Shown here piece after piece: positions 32,290 through 39,399 of a stretch of DNA of 64,000 nt; the first letter of the stretch is position 1, and each line of letters begins with the position of its first letter. The notes beneath the pieces are model-generated. The model did no database searches. It worked only from the letters and a program-made list of their open reading frames with translations, and was not told the origin of the DNA. Source of the stretch: an uncultured Actinomycetes bacterium (GTDB taxonomy: Bacteria; Actinomycetota; Acidimicrobiia; Acidimicrobiales; RAAP-2). The translations under genes were made by a program, and so were the position numbers. The stretch lies in contig CAIKAC010000011.1 of the NCBI GenBank assembly GCA_903825305.1, forward strand, positions 62,001 to 126,000, read 5' to 3'.

Positions 32290-33501
32290 ATGGAAGGCAC
32301 CAAAAACCGCGTATCAAAGAGATTGTCAGAACTCCAGCCATCGGCCACCCTCGCCGTCGATGCTCGGGCCAAAGCGCTCAAGGCAGCAGGTGAGAATGTC
32401 ATAGGTTTTGGTGCCGGAGAGCCAGATTTCCCAACTCCTGACGCCATTGTGGAATTTGCAGTGGCGGCCTGCCGAGACCCCAAAAACCACCGGTACACGC
32501 CCGCTGGCGGCCTTCCTGAGCTTCGTCAGGCCATTGTGGCTAAAACCAAGCGCGACTCCGGTCTCGAGATCACCGCTGATCAGGTCATGATCACCAACGG
32601 CGGCAAACACGCCATTGCCAATGCCTTTGCCGCATTGCTTGATCCAGGCGATGAAGTCATTATCCCGGCGCCTTTTTGGACGACGTACCCGGAGTCAGCT
32701 GCTCTGGTTGGCGGCGTTCCGGTCATTGTGGCCACCGACGAGAGCACGGGCTTCAAAGCGACGCCGGACATGCTCGAAGCTGTTCGTACCCCCAACACCA
32801 AGTTGTTGGTCTTTTGCTCGCCGTCGAACCCAACGGGCGCTGTCTACACGGCAGAAGAGATGGATGCTGTGGCTGCTTGGGCGGCCGAGCATGGCATTTG
32901 GGTCATGGCCGACGAGATTTACGAACACCTGATCTACGACGACGCTGAATTGATTTCCATGCCGGCTCGATCTGCGGCCCTTGGTGATCACTGGGTAGTC
33001 GTCAATGGTGTCGCCAAGACCTACGCCATGACCGGATGGCGAGTTGGCTGGATTATTGGGCCAAAAGACGTGATTGCTGCAGCAACAAACCTGCAGAGTC
33101 AAATCACCTCCAACGTGGCAGACGTTTCTCAGCAAGCGGCGCTCGCGGCGGTCAGCGGTGACCTCACCGCAGTTGCCGCCATGCGCGAAGCCTTCGATCG
33201 GCGGCGCAAGCTCATGACCAACATGCTGAACGAGATTGATGGTGTGACCTGCCTGTTGCCCAAGGGTGCCTTCTATTGCTTCCCTAATGTCACGGGCTTG
33301 TTGAGCAAGAACATTCGCGGTCGTGTCTGCACGAGCAGCGCCGAACTGGCTGAATTGTGCATTGACGAGGTCAAGGTGGCGGTGGTCCCAGGCGAGGCGT
33401 TTGGTGCTCCTGGATACTTGCGACTCTCATATGCGCTTGGCGACGATGATCTTGTTGAAGGCGTGACGCGTCTGCAGCAACTCTTCGCTGACGCTCAATA
33501 A
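32290..33501 (+). CDS. Class I PLP aminotransferase, aspartate aminotransferase type
   Basis: A 403-aa aminotransferase of the type Ib AspAT group. The N-terminus is [22 protein letters not shown], followed by [10 protein letters not shown] (substrate Gly loop). It has NPTGAVY, the PLP lysine in [16 protein letters not shown], and the carboxylate-binding Arg in YLRLSYAL. It likely converts aspartate/2-oxoglutarate and may also serve other acids. ATG 32290 is chosen over an in-frame ATG at 32248 that lies inside serC. serA follows 34 nt downstream. Confidence 0.88.
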
Positions 33502-33535
33502 CAGTTACTAACCCCCCACCCATTCAGGAGAACAC

Positions 33536-35107
33536 ATGGCCAGAGTCCTTGTTACCGAAAAGATTGCACAACCGGGCTTGGACCAGTTGGCCGCAGCTGG
33601 ACACGAGGTTGATATTCAGCTTGACCTCACGCCTGAGCAATTGCTCGAAGTAATTGTTGGCGCTCACGCGCTGATCATCCGTTCCGCCACCACCGTCACG
33701 GCTGAAGTGCTCGAAGCTGGTCGTGATCTCGTCGTTGTTGGTCGAGCCGGCATTGGTCTTGACAATGTTGATGTGGTTCGCGCCACGGAGCTCGGCGTCA
33801 TGGTTGTCAACGCCCCTCAATCGAACATCGTCTCAGCAGCCGAGCAGGCCATGGCATTGCTCCTCGCTCAAGCGAGAAACATCCCCCAAGCCCACTCGGC
33901 GCTGGTGGCGGGGAAGTGGGAGCGCTCGAAGTGGGAGGGTGTTGAACTCTACGAAAAGACCCTCGCCATCATTGGTTTGGGTCGCATCGGTGCCCTCGTG
34001 GCTCAGCGCGCTTTGGCCTTCGGCATGACCTTGATTGCCTATGACCCCTTTGTAAGTGCGGAGCGCGCCAAGCTCATGGGGATTGAAATGGTAAGTCTCG
34101 ATGAGGCGCTGGCCCGCGCAGATTTCATCACCATTCACCTTCCCAAGAACAAAGAAACCATTGGTTTGTTGAACGCAGAAACCTTGGCCAAGACCAAGAA
34201 GGGTGTTCGTATCATCAACGCAGCTCGAGGCGGCATCGTGGATGAAGCGGCGCTCGCCGATGCGATTCGCTCAGGTCATGTTGGTGGCGCTGGCATAGAT
34301 GTCTTCGAGAAGGAACCAACGACTGAATCTCCGCTCTTTGAATTGAGCTCAGTCGTCGTCGCTCCTCACCTTGGTGCCTCGACGGCTGAAGCTCAGGACA
34401 AAGCTGGGGCCACGATTGCCGACATGGTCGAACTGGCCTTGGCTGGTGACTTTGTGCCCTTTGCTGTCAATATTGCAGCGGGCGATGTTTCTGAAATGGT
34501 GCGCCCCTTCATGGGTCTTGCCGAGCAATTAGGTCGATTCGTTGGCGGGCTCGTCGACGAGAGCCCCTCAAAGGTCGACATTGGTTTCCACGGAGAACTT
34601 GCTGGCACGGGCACGGGCATCTTGACTCTGTCCGTACTCAAGGGCCTTTTGGGCTCACACAGCGATGAACCGGTGAGCTACGTCAATGCGCCAGCGATCG
34701 CTGAGAGCCGAGGACTCGAGATTGATGAGACCTCTAGCGTGACCAGCCACGACTTCGTGAACTTGATTACGGTCAGCGCGGGTGGTCACTCCGTTGCTGG
34801 AACCCTGACGGGCATTGGCAACCGTATTGAACCAAGAATCGTCTCGGTTGACGGACATGCGTTGGAGCTGTCGCCTGCAGCCCACATGCTGGTGGTTCGC
34901 AATGATGACCGACCTGGCATGATCGGGGTGGTGGGTACTGCGCTTGGCAACGCCGAAATTTCCGTTGACTCCATGGCCGTGAGCCCGAGCGCTGAAGCTG
35001 GTACGGCACTGATGGTGCTTTCAACCGCAGAGGCTCTGGCAGATGACGTGATTGCTGGCTTGGTCGGCTCTGCCGGCATCCAGGCCGTTCACCGAATCGA
35101 GCTCTAA
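33536..35107 (+). CDS. serA: D-3-phosphoglycerate dehydrogenase, long (ASB + ACT) form
   Basis: A 523-aa NAD enzyme starting serine synthesis. It has a 2-hydroxyacid dehydrogenase fold with GLGRIGALVAQRAL (NAD), catalytic Arg in NAARGGIVDE, and the His motif VVAPHLGASTAEA. An allosteric substrate-binding intervening domain follows (about 320-445), then a C-terminal ACT domain (MLVVRNDDRPGMIGVVG) for serine feedback. This is the same layout as the mycobacterial enzyme. RBS CAGGAGA precedes the ATG. It converges with the 56-aa membrane gene, the stops being 6 nt apart. Confidence 0.95.
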   Translation: MARVLVTEKIAQPGLDQLAAAGHEVDIQLDLTPEQLLEVIVGAHALIIRSATTVTAEVLEAGRDLVVVGRAGIGLDNVDVVRATELGVMVVNAPQSNIVSAAEQAMALLLAQARNIPQAHSALVAGKWERSKWEGVELYEKTLAIIGLGRIGALVAQRALAFGMTLIAYDPFVSAERAKLMGIEMVSLDEALARADFITIHLPKNKETIGLLNAETLAKTKKGVRIINAARGGIVDEAALADAIRSGHVGGAGIDVFEKEPTTESPLFELSSVVVAPHLGASTAEAQDKAGATIADMVELALAGDFVPFAVNIAAGDVSEMVRPFMGLAEQLGRFVGGLVDESPSKVDIGFHGELAGTGTGILTLSVLKGLLGSHSDEPVSYVNAPAIAESRGLEIDETSSVTSHDFVNLITVSAGGHSVAGTLTGIGNRIEPRIVSVDGHALELSPAAHMLVVRNDDRPGMIGVVGTALGNAEISVDSMAVSPSAEAGTALMVLSTAEALADDVIAGLVGSAGIQAVHRIEL

Positions 35108-35113
35108 GCCTTT

Positions 35114-35284
35114 CTAAGCAGTTTGCTTGCCGGGCACGTCCGGCCAGGTGTCAAAACTGCCTGGCAAGTTGCCATCAGTTTCCACCCCTGCCTTGTCTGC
35201 GCGGGACTTTCGCAGTTCCACGACCAAGTAGGCAACGGCGGCGGCCACAAGGGCAAGAAGGGCAAGTTTGATCCATCGGCTCAT
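35114..35284 (-). CDS. Small bitopic membrane protein, 56 aa
   Basis: A short frame with a clean membrane-protein design: MSRWIK, one hydrophobic helix (LALLALVAAAVAYLVV), then a charged stretch (ELRKSRADKAG) and a polar tail ending in SFDTWPDVPGK. The minus-strand box TAGAGT lies exactly 6 nt before the ATG, matching the leaderless promoter layout of neighbours. It fills the gap between serA and the leuA attenuator. I recall no named family; the function is unknown. Confidence 0.65.
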   Translation of the reverse strand: MSRWIKLALLALVAAAVAYLVVELRKSRADKAGVETDGNLPGSFDTWPDVPGKQTA

Positions 35285-35290
35285 GCTTCC

Positions 35291-35296
35291 ACTCTA
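35291..35296 (-). promoter_or_regulatory. Leaderless -10 box of the 56-aa membrane protein
   Basis: Minus-strand TAGAGT followed by 6 nt and the ATG at 35284. The same hexamer occurs 7 nt before the gene at 45817. Confidence 0.5.
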
Positions 35297-35328
35297 GGCA
35301 CCTGCGAAGCCATCTGGCGCAGCTCATG

Positions 35329-35356
35329 TTGGATTCTGGCCTGATTCCGATATACT
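35329..35356 (+). promoter_or_regulatory. Promoter of the leuA leader transcript
   Basis: TTGGAT (35329-35334), 16 nt, then TATACT (35351-35356). The leader GTG at 35364 follows after 7 nt, so the RNA should start at the start codon. Confidence 0.7.
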
Positions 35357-35363
35357 GACAGAC

Positions 35364-35396
35364 GTGACGAACACCACGTCCCTGCTGCTTATCTAG
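35364..35396 (+). CDS. leuA attenuator leader peptide, 10 aa
   Basis: GTG-started ORF encoding MTNTTSLLLI. Three consecutive leucine codons (CTG CTG CTT) and an Ile codon come directly before the stop. This is the arrangement expected for leucine-sensing attenuation of leuA. No RBS is present; the -10 box lies 7 nt upstream, so the peptide is probably translated from a leaderless RNA. A GC-rich hairpin and a T-tailed terminator follow. Confidence 0.82.
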   Translation: MTNTTSLLLI

Positions 35397-35397
35397 C

Positions 35398-35421
35398 GGC
35401 GAGCGCCACACTGCGCTCGCC
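35398..35421 (+). promoter_or_regulatory. First hairpin of the leuA attenuator
   Basis: A perfect 9-bp stem GGCGAGCGC / GCGCTCGCC with a 6-nt loop, starting 2 nt after the leader stop codon. A ribosome at the stop would mask its 5' arm. Confidence 0.7.
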
Positions 35422-35424
35422 TTG

Positions 35425-35456
35425 AAACCTCCTGTGCCGTTGGCCAGGGGGTTTTT
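35425..35456 (+). terminator. Intrinsic terminator of the leuA attenuator
   Basis: A 10-bp stem AAACCTCCTG / CAGGGGGTTT (one G-U), with a small GCC/GGC extension in the loop, followed by a T5 run. It lies 3 nt after the first hairpin and 65 nt before the leuA ATG. Confidence 0.85.
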
Positions 35457-35521
35457 CATTGGGCAAGCGCAGGTGGGGCCGCCAAGATACGTAACGGGGC
35501 TGTCAGCCAAGGAGATCAGTG

Positions 35522-37201
35522 ATGCCAGCATCGACGAAGCAGAACGAAGGGGTTATGCCCCATGCGCGCTATGCCGAGACGCTGCCCCTCGTGCTTGATG
35601 ACCGCACGTGGCCCAATGCTCGCCTTAGCGCTGCCCCTCGGTGGTGCAGCGTGGATCTGCGGGATGGAAACCAGGCGCTCGTCGAACCCATGGATCCAGA
35701 GCGCAAGCTCGCCATGTTCACGCTTTTGGTGGAACTCGGCTTCAAGGAAATTGAAGTTGGTTTCCCCTCGGCATCGCAAACAGATTTTGATTTCATCCGA
35801 AAGATCATTGATGAGGGCCGTGTCCCCGATGACGTGACCATTCAGGTCTTGGTGCAGTGCCGTGAAGATCTGATTCGCCGCACCTTCGAAGCAGTGAAGG
35901 GCGCCAAGAAGGTCATCGTGCACTTCTACAACTCAACTTCAACCCTGCAGCGCCGCGTGGTCTTTGGTCTCGAGCGTGAAGGCATCATCGAGATCGCCCG
36001 CAACGCTGCTGCGCTGTGCAAGGACTTTGAATTTGGACTGCCTGGAACCGAGGTCCAATTCGAATACTCACCAGAGTCATTCACCGGCACTGAGCCAGAT
36101 TTCGCGGTGGAAATTTGCGAGGCCGTCATGGACATCATTCAGCCCACGGCGGAAAAGCCCTTGATTCTGAACTTGCCTGCCACGGTTGAGCATTACACGC
36201 CCAATGTGTACGCCGACGTCATTGAGTGGTTTGGCAGGACCATCAAGAACCGTGACACCGTTGTGATCAGCCTTCACCCGCACAACGACCGTGGAACTGG
36301 GGTCGCCGCCGCAGAGCTGGGCTTAATGGCTGGAGCGGATCGAGTGGAAGGAACGCTTTTCGGTAATGGTGAGCGCACTGGCAATGTCGATATCGTTACC
36401 TTGGCCCTGAATTTGTTCAGCCAGGGTGTCGATCCAGAACTCGACTTTTCTGACATCGAAAAAGTTCGCCTCATTGCCGAGCGAACGACTCGCATGACGG
36501 TACATCCTCGCCACCCGTACGCCGGGGACTTGGTCTACACCGCCTTCTCGGGCTCACACCAAGACGCCATCAAGAAGGGCATGGCCCTGATCGGTCAAGA
36601 CTACGAACGCTGGGAAGTGCCCTATCTCCCCATTGACCCTAAGCACACGGGCCGAACCTATGAAGAAATCATCCGCGTGAACTCCCAGTCGGGCAAGGGT
36701 GGCGTGAGTTACCTCATGGACCAAGAGTATGGATTGAACTTGCCGAGACAGCTTCAAGTGGAGTTCTCGCGTCACGTCCAAAAAGTTGCGGATGCAACGG
36801 GTGCCGAGATCAAGCCCGATGAACTCTGGGACCTCTTCGAAGAGACCTATTTCTCTGCTGATGCTCAACTGCAGTTGATCTCCACCGAAGTAGTGACCGG
36901 TTCAGGACACACAACGGTTGTGGCGCAACTCAAAGTTGACGATAGCCATGTCACAGTAAAGGGCGAAGGCAACGGACCCATTGCCGCACTCGTGGCGGGC
37001 CTCCACGAAGCGCTGGGGATCACCATTGAGGTCAAGGACTACTCGGAGCACGCCTTGGCCGGTGGTTCAGGCGCTGCTGCCGTTGCCTATGTGCAAGTTG
37101 CCGGAACCGATGGTGCGCTGTGGTGGGGCGTGGGAATGGACTCCTCCATTCTTGATGCGTCACTGCGAGCCGTCATTTCTGCTGCTAACCGTATTGGCTG
37201 A
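35522..37201 (+). CDS. leuA: 2-isopropylmalate synthase
   Basis: A 559-aa enzyme condensing acetyl-CoA with 2-oxoisovalerate, the first committed leucine step. The DRE-TIM barrel shows CSVDLRDGNQALVEPMD (metal-binding Asp, catalytic Arg), HFYNSTSTLQRRVVF, and the metal HxH in SLHPHNDRG. The C-terminal regulatory domain (from about 430) ends the protein and gives leucine feedback. This is the long LeuA2 type of actinobacteria. AAGGAG fits ATG 35522 better than the GTG 3 nt earlier. It is preceded by the Leu-codon attenuator. Confidence 0.95.
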   Translation: MPASTKQNEGVMPHARYAETLPLVLDDRTWPNARLSAAPRWCSVDLRDGNQALVEPMDPERKLAMFTLLVELGFKEIEVGFPSASQTDFDFIRKIIDEGRVPDDVTIQVLVQCREDLIRRTFEAVKGAKKVIVHFYNSTSTLQRRVVFGLEREGIIEIARNAAALCKDFEFGLPGTEVQFEYSPESFTGTEPDFAVEICEAVMDIIQPTAEKPLILNLPATVEHYTPNVYADVIEWFGRTIKNRDTVVISLHPHNDRGTGVAAAELGLMAGADRVEGTLFGNGERTGNVDIVTLALNLFSQGVDPELDFSDIEKVRLIAERTTRMTVHPRHPYAGDLVYTAFSGSHQDAIKKGMALIGQDYERWEVPYLPIDPKHTGRTYEEIIRVNSQSGKGGVSYLMDQEYGLNLPRQLQVEFSRHVQKVADATGAEIKPDELWDLFEETYFSADAQLQLISTEVVTGSGHTTVVAQLKVDDSHVTVKGEGNGPIAALVAGLHEALGITIEVKDYSEHALAGGSGAAAVAYVQVAGTDGALWWGVGMDSSILDASLRAVISAANRIG

Positions 37202-37204
37202 GCA

Positions 37205-37669
37205 GTGACACTCACGATTCGAGATGCGCGTCTCGACGAAGCCGCCGTCGTCTGGGATCTCTCCCGCCAGCTCGCGATCTTCGAAGAGATGGAATCCATC
37301 TTCGTAGCCACCGTCGAGGACTTTCGTCGAGAAATGGGACGCCCCGACGCTGTCATGAACTGCCTCCTGGCAGAGGTCGATGGCGAGGTAGTGGCCTCAG
37401 CGGTGTATTTCCGGACCTTCTCCACCTTTCTGTGTCGGCCCGGCATCTGGCTCGAGGAATTGTTTGTCACGCCCGCCTATCGCCGCCGCGGCATTGCCCA
37501 AGCCCTGCTTGATGAATTGAGGAATCGATCAGAAGGCCGCGTCGAATGGGAAGTGTTGACCTGGAATCACGATGCGATTGCGCTCTATGAGGCCTATGGG
37601 GCGAGCCAAGAATCGGGTTGGATGAAGTACCGAATTTCACCTACCGACTCGCCGCCTCGGGCTGTCTAA
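37205..37669 (+). CDS. GNAT-family acetyltransferase (SAT-like)
   Basis: A 154-aa acetyltransferase starting at GTG 37205, 3 nt after the leuA stop. Motif A is LEELFVTPAYRRRGIAQALL; motif B is WNHDAIALYEAYGA. The N-terminal ILDARLDEAAVVW-like helix and the F-R-T-F-S-T-F block resemble spermidine/diamine acetyltransferases. An amine acceptor is thus possible but unproven. It may ride on leuA transcription without a metabolic link. Confidence 0.82.
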   Translation: MTLTIRDARLDEAAVVWDLSRQLAIFEEMESIFVATVEDFRREMGRPDAVMNCLLAEVDGEVVASAVYFRTFSTFLCRPGIWLEELFVTPAYRRRGIAQALLDELRNRSEGRVEWEVLTWNHDAIALYEAYGASQESGWMKYRISPTDSPPRAV

Positions 37670-37677
37670 AGTGAAGC

Positions 37678-39399
37678 ATGGCTCGACCTTCTGTTTCCGC
37701 CCGCGCTCAAGCCGTTGCTCGGGGAGATGAACCCGCAGACTTGTTGATCCGTGGTGGCCGGGTGTTATCTCCGGCTGCTCGTTCGTGGATCACCACTGAT
37801 CTCGCCATAGCTGACGGCGTGGTGTGTGGCTGGGGACCGCGAGATGCGCTCGAGGAACTTGACGTTGCTGGTGCCGCTGTGGTCGCTGGCTTTGTCGATG
37901 CACACATGCACTTGGAATCCACCAAATTGTGGGTCGATGAATTTGTCCGCACCGTGTTGCCACTTGGAACTACAGCAGTCGCTGCCGACCCTCATGAAAT
38001 TGCGAATGTCTTAGGGGTGGCTGGAGTGGCTGGCCTCAAGCAAGCGGCCGAGCGCTTGCCCTTTACCTTTGGCATCACGGCATCGAGTTGTGTTCCGGCC
38101 TCGCCTTTTGAATCGTCAGGCGCTCATCTCGACCACCGAGATGTCGCCGAACTGATGAACACCTATGGCGCTCTCGGGGTGGCGGAAGTGATGAATTTCC
38201 CCGGCGTCATCGCAGGAGACGCTGAAATGCTGGCTCGTATTGGCGCCGCCAATGGGCGCAGGGTGGATGGTCACGCACCGTTAGTCCGAGGCCGCGACCT
38301 CGATGCCTATCTCGCTGCTGGGGTTGAATCAGACCACGAGTGCACGATGCTCGCCGAGGCCGAAGAGAAGCGGGCTAAGGGCATGTGGGTGTTCATTCGC
38401 CAAGGCTCAGCGTCCCAAAACTTGCGTGATCTGATTCCCATGGTGCTGCGAGACGGTATCGGACACGTGGCCCTGTGTTCCGATGATCGCGAACCCGACA
38501 CCTTGCTGAGTGTGGGTCACTTGAACGATTGCATCAACTTGGCGATTCAAGAAGGCGTGAGTGAGATTGACGCCTTCATTATGGCCACCATGAACCCAGC
38601 CGAATATCACGGGTTCCATCACCTCGGCTCGCTCGGCCCTGGCTATCAAGCGGATCTGTGTATCTTCGACACCATCGAGGGGGTGCGTCCCGCGCGGGTC
38701 TACCAGCGCGGCCAACTCGTGGCCGAACAAGGTCACATGGTCCCGGGAATCGTAGAGTCTGCTCCTGCACCTGCATGGATGCGCGAAAGTATCCACCTCG
38801 CCTCAGCCCCCACCGCTTCGTCGCTCGAGTTGAATCTTCCGGAATCTGGCAATGCAAGAATCATCGGCATTGAAGACGGATCGTTGACGACGAAGTCGCT
38901 GGAAGGCGATCCAGCCGATGGTTCACTCAATGCGGCGAGGTTGGCGGTGCTCGAGCGCCATCACGCTACGGGCCGAATTGGCTTGGGCTGGGTGAGTGGA
39001 TTTGGTCTCGAGCGCGGAGCCTTCGCTTCGACGGTTGGCCACGATGCCCACAATGTGATGGCGGTGGGGTCTCGCCATGATCATGGAACTACAGCTATGG
39101 CTGCAGCAATTGAGGCCGTAGGCGCAATGGGTGGCGGGCAGGTGGTGGTCGATGAGACAGGCGCCGTTTTAGCGTCTCTGCCTCTCCCCATCGCGGGTTT
39201 GATGAGCGATCAACCGGCCGCCGTTGTCGGCGAGGGTCTTGAGCGTTTGCTTGAAGCTGCGCGCAGTCTTGGCGTCACCATCGGAGCGCCATTCATGCAT
39301 TTGAGCTTTCTTGGGCTCTCCGTGATTCCCGAACTTCGACTCACCGACCAGGGCCTCATTGACGTCAACGCCTTCGAGATTGTGGATGTGAATCTCTAA
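37678..39399 (+). CDS. ade: Adenine deaminase
   Basis: A 573-aa amidohydrolase converting adenine to hypoxanthine. It has metal-binding HMHLEST in VDAHMHLESTKLW, the PHEIANVLG segment, the VDGHAPLV loop, SDHECT, and CSDDREPDTLL near the metal site. The C-terminal adenine-deaminase domain (about 400-573) ends with PFMHLSFLGLSVIPELRLTDQG. TAAAGT lies 5 nt before the ATG, so it may have its own leaderless promoter. It belongs to purine salvage, with no pathway partner nearby. Confidence 0.92.
   Translation: MARPSVSARAQAVARGDEPADLLIRGGRVLSPAARSWITTDLAIADGVVCGWGPRDALEELDVAGAAVVAGFVDAHMHLESTKLWVDEFVRTVLPLGTTAVAADPHEIANVLGVAGVAGLKQAAERLPFTFGITASSCVPASPFESSGAHLDHRDVAELMNTYGALGVAEVMNFPGVIAGDAEMLARIGAANGRRVDGHAPLVRGRDLDAYLAAGVESDHECTMLAEAEEKRAKGMWVFIRQGSASQNLRDLIPMVLRDGIGHVALCSDDREPDTLLSVGHLNDCINLAIQEGVSEIDAFIMATMNPAEYHGFHHLGSLGPGYQADLCIFDTIEGVRPARVYQRGQLVAEQGHMVPGIVESAPAPAWMRESIHLASAPTASSLELNLPESGNARIIGIEDGSLTTKSLEGDPADGSLNAARLAVLERHHATGRIGLGWVSGFGLERGAFASTVGHDAHNVMAVGSRHDHGTTAMAAAIEAVGAMGGGQVVVDETGAVLASLPLPIAGLMSDQPAAVVGEGLERLLEAARSLGVTIGAPFMHLSFLGLSVIPELRLTDQGLIDVNAFEIVDVNL

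Follow-up and report, generated by a model that had tools for sequence, protein, structure and literature searches.

A conserved, modular and apparently antiterminator-free leucine leader cassette upstream of leuA in the class Acidimicrobiia

How might a short leader peptide govern transcription of leuA where the RNA behind it is predicted to form no antiterminator? The question is raised by a locus in the window, by which we mean the whole 64,000-nucleotide stretch of DNA analysed here, taken from a genome of 1.94 Mb in 27 contigs. On its forward strand, a weak -35 hexamer read from the sequence, TTGGAT (35329-35334; three of six consensus matches), and a -10 hexamer, TATACT (35351-35356), whose spacing to the leader start is similar in many relatives, are separated by 16 nt. 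After a further 7 nt, GTG 35364 opens a predicted leaderless ORF (35364-35396) encoding VTNTTSLLLI (M at the start codon), in which the control Leu codons CTG CTG CTT (35382-35390) are followed by the Ile codon ATC (35391-35393) and the stop codon TAG (35394-35396), a register that we write as LLLx-stop; the leader of the same-genus locus L003 reads MTNTTSLLLL as against MTNTTSLLLI in the window. Hairpin 1 (35398-35421; 9 bp, GGCGAGCGC/GCGCTCGCC, with a 6-nt loop) abuts the stop, and an intrinsic terminator hairpin follows (35424-35456; stem start at 35424/35425, T run at 35452-35456). The Shine-Dalgarno sequence AAGGAG (35509-35514) precedes leuA (35522-37201; ATG 35522, alternative start GTG 35519), whose product scores above the NCBIfam cut-off for TIGR00970 and is thus a 2-isopropylmalate synthase. 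A preliminary description of this DNA had given the promoter, the leader with three Leu codons and one Ile codon, and the T-tailed terminator 3 nt past hairpin 1 with leuA behind it, all of which are present; it also had the 9 bp of hairpin 1 right, while placing its start 2 nt after the stop, where in fact one unpaired base (C35397) intervenes.

None of 200 shuffles folded as well as the leader RNA of the window (z -3.88). A generic consensus scan of positions 33000-38000 found no sigma-70 site and did not list the leuA-leader terminator, which in our reading was overlooked because its stem carries a bulge. Further upstream, a divergent ORF of 56 aa (35114-35284, reverse strand) starts approximately 45 nt from the -35 box; it has one likely membrane helix, judged by eye, and a C-terminal GSFDTWPDVP motif, and ORFs with GSxDTWPxVP occupy the equivalent place in L003, L004, L005 and L007, none being found in L006.

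Judged by covariation, both hairpins are real. A model-fitted alignment of 97 rows (95 distinct) has 98.9 % of its cells paired and shows changes on both sides in 19 of 20 pairs, a figure reached by 0 of 500 shuffles; a free MAFFT alignment of 76 rows gave 93.8 % pairing and likewise 19 of 20 pairs, with slid versions pairing at 39-48 %. Changes on both sides were seen in all nine pairs of hairpin 1 and in 10 of the 11 pairs of the terminator. A third helix of at least five pairs, counted at 70 % of rows for each pair, was absent from the alignment; a kissing or loop interaction of hairpin 1 with the terminator, considered by eye, was dropped, and the helix listing of the alignment has no such helix. 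The 5′ arm of the terminator, CCTCCTG (35428-35434), does not vary among the 16 family sequences, its partner arm changing by wobble, and it is more variable across the 97 class sequences. We take this arm to resemble the anti-Shine-Dalgarno core; its invariance finds no explanation in the tether model set out below.

Covariance searches identify the element as a conserved RNA of the class Acidimicrobiia without an Rfam match, and this is the new part of the finding. It lies directly upstream of leuA in 29 of 30 family loci, own genome included (16 aligned, 13 found later), the thirtieth (L011 in G034) having a run of N at its place and no match. The model R1, built from the 16 family sequences with the window among them, matched 163 of 296 genomes of the class at E<=0.01, in 103 of 148 genera, and left 133 of the 296 without a match; a sample of the phylum gave matches in 63 of its 346 genomes, with 35 of the 63 belonging to the window's own class. 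The own-genome match (E 4.6e-26) carries no independent weight, the window being part of the model; a second one (E 0.198) falls inside an apparent ABC-transporter gene, read by eye, and the next best own-genome match of a further model, R2, had E 0.105. For the window and 20 other loci, Rfam returned no match at the gathering score; the two weak matches seen were to unrelated families. A plasmid search with the element region returned none. Our literature search, which covered mostly openly accessible journals, found no publication on this element. The class is known mostly from uncultured genomes, and the record titles of the 80 leuA loci nearest among named ones agree with this: many belong to metagenome-assembled genomes (MAGs) called Acidimicrobiaceae or Acidimicrobiales, the others bearing only the names Actinomycetes or Actinobacteria or, for a few, the names of other phyla, presumably by mislabelling. 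Seven MAG records that bear the labels Chloroflexi, Acidobacteria, Rokuibacteriota or Pelagibius (L185, L191, L199, L213, L214, L217 and L221) carry a leuA 61-67 % identical to the window protein and are probably mislabelled bins.

We read 124 elements, comprising the 16 family rows (window included), 28 class loci (L035-L062) and 80 that were fetched. Leaders were parsed in 118; hairpin 1 escaped the script in the six dropped, and those of the six that could be viewed have Leu runs too. The ending LLLx-stop occurs in 114 of the 118 parsed leaders, a count biased towards Leu because R1 contains Leu columns; the other four end in RLLRM, EIIIN, IVVIP and TIVIS. By tblastn, a gene of the leuA superfamily lies downstream of 119 of the 124 elements, among them L137, where it is a citramalate synthase behind a III leader. 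The other five are L116, with a cut gene that NCBIfam assigns to 2-isopropylmalate synthase; L133, with leuS; L140 and L142, whose fragments have 3-isopropylmalate dehydrogenase (leuB) as best family and fall below full-length cut-offs; and L079, where the sequence ends 27 nt on.

As far as leaders and genes can be read, the cassette is modular, its codons switching with the gene behind it (leuA, leuS, leuB, ilvB or citramalate synthase). Leaders with LLL precede two LeuA types, TIGR00970 and TIGR00973; leuS is preceded by LLRM, GLGLM and SLLLT (the genes of the last two named by eye); III precedes citramalate synthase in L273 as well as in L137 (L273 by eye); Val/Ile codon runs precede leuB, and mixed runs precede ilvB (genes by eye). 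At L277 (G250 contig C1, 1570700-1574700), an apparent operon leuB-ilvE-cimA, named by eye, follows a VIVIE leader; its cimA frame appears split in the G250 assembly. The Leu bias is avoided by the models R2 and R3, which were built only from the stop codon onward and are blind to the leader; in R2 the terminator helix is one column off (helix 2 only 46.5 % paired), and R3 is the corrected rebuild. All 14 further copies picked by eye among the R2 matches listed carry branched-chain codon runs before branched-chain genes, mostly leuB with Val/Ile, plus one citramalate synthase with Ile and one leuA with Leu; their genes are mostly named by eye, L267 is read in another frame and a single genus supplies four of the copies. 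Of 17 further R3 matches, 10 lie before branched-chain genes and have leaders of this kind (two of the genes read by eye in another frame, two of the leaders having weaker runs) and seven look like chance, so that R3 E-values are optimistic and false positives are present in its tallies of 152 of 296 class genomes at E<=0.001 and of 87 of 346 phylum genomes. Nine R1 matches were read in other classes of the phylum; they precede, by eye, ilvB (five; L284 in another frame), leuS (two), leuA (one) and a class V aminotransferase (one). The last, L280 (G461 contig C78; R3 E 1.3e-14), is a two-hairpin element whose leader, MKLTRRSNK, has no branched-chain run, and it is the one exception we read to the match between regulatory codons and the amino acid of the gene.

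The promoter recurs along with the leader. It was judged only at a score of at least 8, which left 72 of the 118 elements judged and 46 not, and the start codon was not used in the choice. An in-frame start lies 3-12 nt after the -10 box in 70 of the 72 and at 5-9 nt in 55, while the two other frames have start codons at 5-9 nt in 0/72 and 0/72, and at 3-12 nt in one and three. Many relatives probably carry a leaderless leader, and in the window we infer a transcript start at or next to GTG 35364, in keeping with the earlier proposal that the start codon sits at the predicted transcript start. The same proposal took leaderless loading to be unusual, and this is not supported, for leaderless leaders of branched-chain genes are already reported in Streptomyces and Corynebacterium and the arrangement is thus ordinary for Actinobacteria. 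The C. glutamicum ilvB leader is reportedly made without a ribosome binding site, going by the title of a paper from 2000. In the accessible text of the sources, the leaders of S. lividans leuA, leuS and ilvB (leuL1, leuL2 and ilvL) are leaderless, as is that of C. diphtheriae ilvB, while no start could be assigned to the C. diphtheriae leu leader (PMC8079986, PMC5784534, PMC4046766). As far as described there, these leaders share with ours their shortness, a regulatory codon run and the same genes; unlike the window element, the S. lividans leuA leader is described as being without a typical terminator (PMC8079986, PMC5784534, PMC4046766).

The spacing of the parts is tight. Over 117 elements, the distance between stop and hairpin 1 has a mean of -0.1 nt (sd 1.1) and the distance between hairpin 1 and the terminator one of 2.0 nt (sd 1.7); the first of these gaps is -1 to +2 in 114 of 118. 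When 32 further copies were tried, it was -2 to +1 in 26; the six others are L265 and L300 (mis-parsed), L267, L284, L285 and L298, and in L285 the stop lies inside hairpin 1 (gap -14) with the control codons still next to it. According to the available portion of the source, the edge of the ribosome lies 15-16 nt from the P-site codon (PMC6851288). With this distance, a ribosome holding Leu1 or Leu2 in the A site has its edge in or just past the stop codon and, since the stop abuts hairpin 1, a stall there is predicted to leave the hairpin intact; it is predicted to be partly opened at Leu3 and opened with the ribosome at the stop.

We searched for an antiterminator by cutting the transcript before the terminator 3′ arm and counting the bases of the 5′ arm held by upstream RNA, a test of nested pairing, outside which pseudoknots and proteins fall. 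When stalled, the E. coli controls leuL, thrL and hisL had 6, 9 and 9 arm bases held, as against 0.1, 0 and 9 at the stop, so that the test separates the states in two of three controls, hisL holding 9 in both. No antiterminator on stalling was predicted by this test across the 117 elements: with Leu1 and Leu2 in the A site the medians were 0.2 and 0.5 bases, and at least 4 were held in only 5/117 and 2/117. With the ribosome at the stop the median was 4.8 bases (at least 4 in 85/117), a weak pairing for which we have no explanation. A full-length partition-function test with the ribosome masked had been rejected and replaced by the truncated-transcript test because its E. coli controls did not discriminate, giving a terminator probability of 0.95-0.97 in every state. 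The label of attenuator given in the preliminary description thus stands for the Leu leader, the terminator and leuA, and not for the antiterminator that the label usually implies, none being predicted; the absence of a predicted antiterminator, like the class-wide, modular nature of the element, had been missed.

The leader, its register, the two hairpins, the terminator, their conservation and the match of codons to gene can all be read in the DNA itself, and we infer that the element responds to leucine. The core of our reading, to which we give a probability of roughly 0.75-0.8, takes the element for a ribosome-mediated transcription attenuator by which leuA is controlled in response to charged tRNA-Leu. 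With transcription starting at or next to GTG 35364, the ribosome would load at the RNA 5′ end. With leucine in good supply, it would reach the stop, melt hairpin 1 and leave; the terminator would then form and transcription would stop near 35456. When leucine is short, it would stall on a Leu codon, at Leu1 or Leu2 with its leading edge at about the stop codon, hairpin 1 would stay folded, and polymerase would read on into leuA past a blocked terminator.

How the terminator would be blocked is the more tentative step, and our account of it we hold to be less likely than not: the folded hairpin 1 may act as a tether shortener, leaving too little RNA between the stalled ribosome and RNA polymerase for the terminator to close, so that the stalled ribosome blocks it directly, whereas melting of the hairpin by a ribosome at the stop would provide the slack that the terminator needs. 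According to one study, 28 nt from the P-site to the RNA polymerase active site corresponds to the fully collided state without intervening mRNA, and at 37 nt or less collision affects a substantial fraction of complexes (PMC11711091). We counted the tether as RNA from the P-site to the 3′ end with both hairpins folded, taking the termination point as the T-run start + 7; the count uses E. coli dimensions and ignores partial melting of hairpin 1 at Leu3. Medians over the 117 elements were 26, 23 and 20 nt at Leu1, Leu2 and Leu3, and 39 nt at the stop with hairpin 1 melted (window: 26, 23, 20 and 38 nt). The tether is below 28 nt in 92, 111 and 115 of the 117 at the three Leu codons and in none at the stop, where it exceeds 37 nt in 85; it is 28 nt or longer at Leu1 in 25 of 117, including the same-genus L003 (32 nt; 29 at Leu2), and the 26 nt of the window at Leu1 are within error of 28 nt. 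The stalled tether is short and the stop-state tether long, and thus a stall would leave the terminator no room and completion of the leader would. That attenuators throughout the class need no antiterminator, a stop-abutting hairpin gauging the position of the ribosome within a modular cassette, is a broader and slightly more doubtful proposition.

The main rival of the tether step, which we consider rather unlikely yet worth weighing, is that hairpin 1 makes polymerase pause, as hairpins of the trp/his leader type do: polymerase would be kept waiting in the 5′ arm of the terminator for the ribosome to arrive, and read-through on starvation would come from a close or stalled ribosome, in the manner of pyrBI or tlrB, without any tether geometry. 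A pyrimidine-G step of the CCTCCTG arm lies, by eye, approximately 9-12 nt past hairpin 1, a distance at which such a step resembles a hairpin-stabilised pause site; against this, the arm varies across the 97 class sequences and the spacing varies too, and a pause by itself does not account for why a stall tens of nucleotides upstream should stop the terminator. The pyrBI attenuator of E. coli senses nucleotides. As described in the accessible text, the position of the ribosome there directly decides whether the terminator forms, a likeness with which the geometry of our element is compatible, and it does so by tight coupling over the leader peptide and not by codon stalling (PMC5021804). In the B. 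subtilis tlrB (yxjB) leader, according to the part of the source available, no overlapping antiterminator was identified and a stalled ribosome prevents the terminator, again as proposed here; the tlrB ribosome, however, is stalled by a drug and covers the terminator base, whereas in our element a hairpin intervenes and the signal would be an amino acid (PMC6851288). Both systems illustrate a ribosome blocking a terminator without an antiterminator, which also suits the pause reading.

Should the element instead be a classical attenuator, its antiterminator would have to be a pseudoknot or a weak kinetic structure missed by nested folding, which we think unlikely. Its regulatory codons, leader and terminator are those of classical attenuators; as in E. 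coli leuL, thrL and hisL, the operon is preceded by a leader that bears regulatory codons and by an intrinsic terminator. Weak 4-bp alternatives do recur, namely the hairpin 1 3′ strand with the terminator GnGC (mean 0.85) and GGCG with nGCC (mean 0.82). The three E. coli leaders differ from the Acidimicrobiia family in having an antiterminator predicted on stalling, detected by the same test, and in leuL and thrL it is the stall that frees it, whereas here a stall at Leu1 or Leu2 would leave hairpin 1 folded; moreover, the weak pairing of our elements (median 4.8 bases) arises when the ribosome is at the stop, which is not the state that read-through on starvation would call for.

A relative of the actinobacterial LEU element, in which the Leu codons would pair with the leuA Shine-Dalgarno sequence and regulation would be translational or protein-bound, is a very improbable reading. 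That element, in the accessible text of its description, is likewise a leuA leader with a Leu run; it is presented as a pseudoknot with the leuA Shine-Dalgarno in its base stem and other attenuator parts missing (PMC1262725), and leuA leader mutations in S. coelicolor are cited as not behaving like classical attenuation (cited in PMC1262725). Across our loci, the Leu run forms a median duplex of -9.5 kcal/mol with Shine-Dalgarno-like sites (-10 or lower in 44/106), a figure without a control and for the best of several sites; in the window, the only place where the pairing was computed, the probabilities of Leu codons pairing with the leuA Shine-Dalgarno sum to 0.003, and the covarying terminator and the switch of codon run with gene also argue against it. 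A constitutive terminator of the ordinary kind, preceded by an ORF that is there by chance, a reading for which one might point to a long forward-strand ORF read by eye as serA that ends upstream at 35107, can practically be dismissed on account of the fixed LLLx-stop register, the gene-linked codon switch and the promoter recurring just before the leader.

A conserved, modular and apparently antiterminator-free cassette is a stronger finding than the leaderless start. Were the core alone true, branched-chain amino acid genes would appear to be controlled by a conserved RNA family that Rfam does not contain. Should the steric reading be true as well, amino-acid attenuation would be possible without mutually exclusive RNA folds, one hairpin and a fixed codon register being enough. 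The element would then be a very simple transcriptional amino-acid sensor, retargetable by a few codon changes, and could provide a direct test of how near ribosome and RNA polymerase can come to each other.
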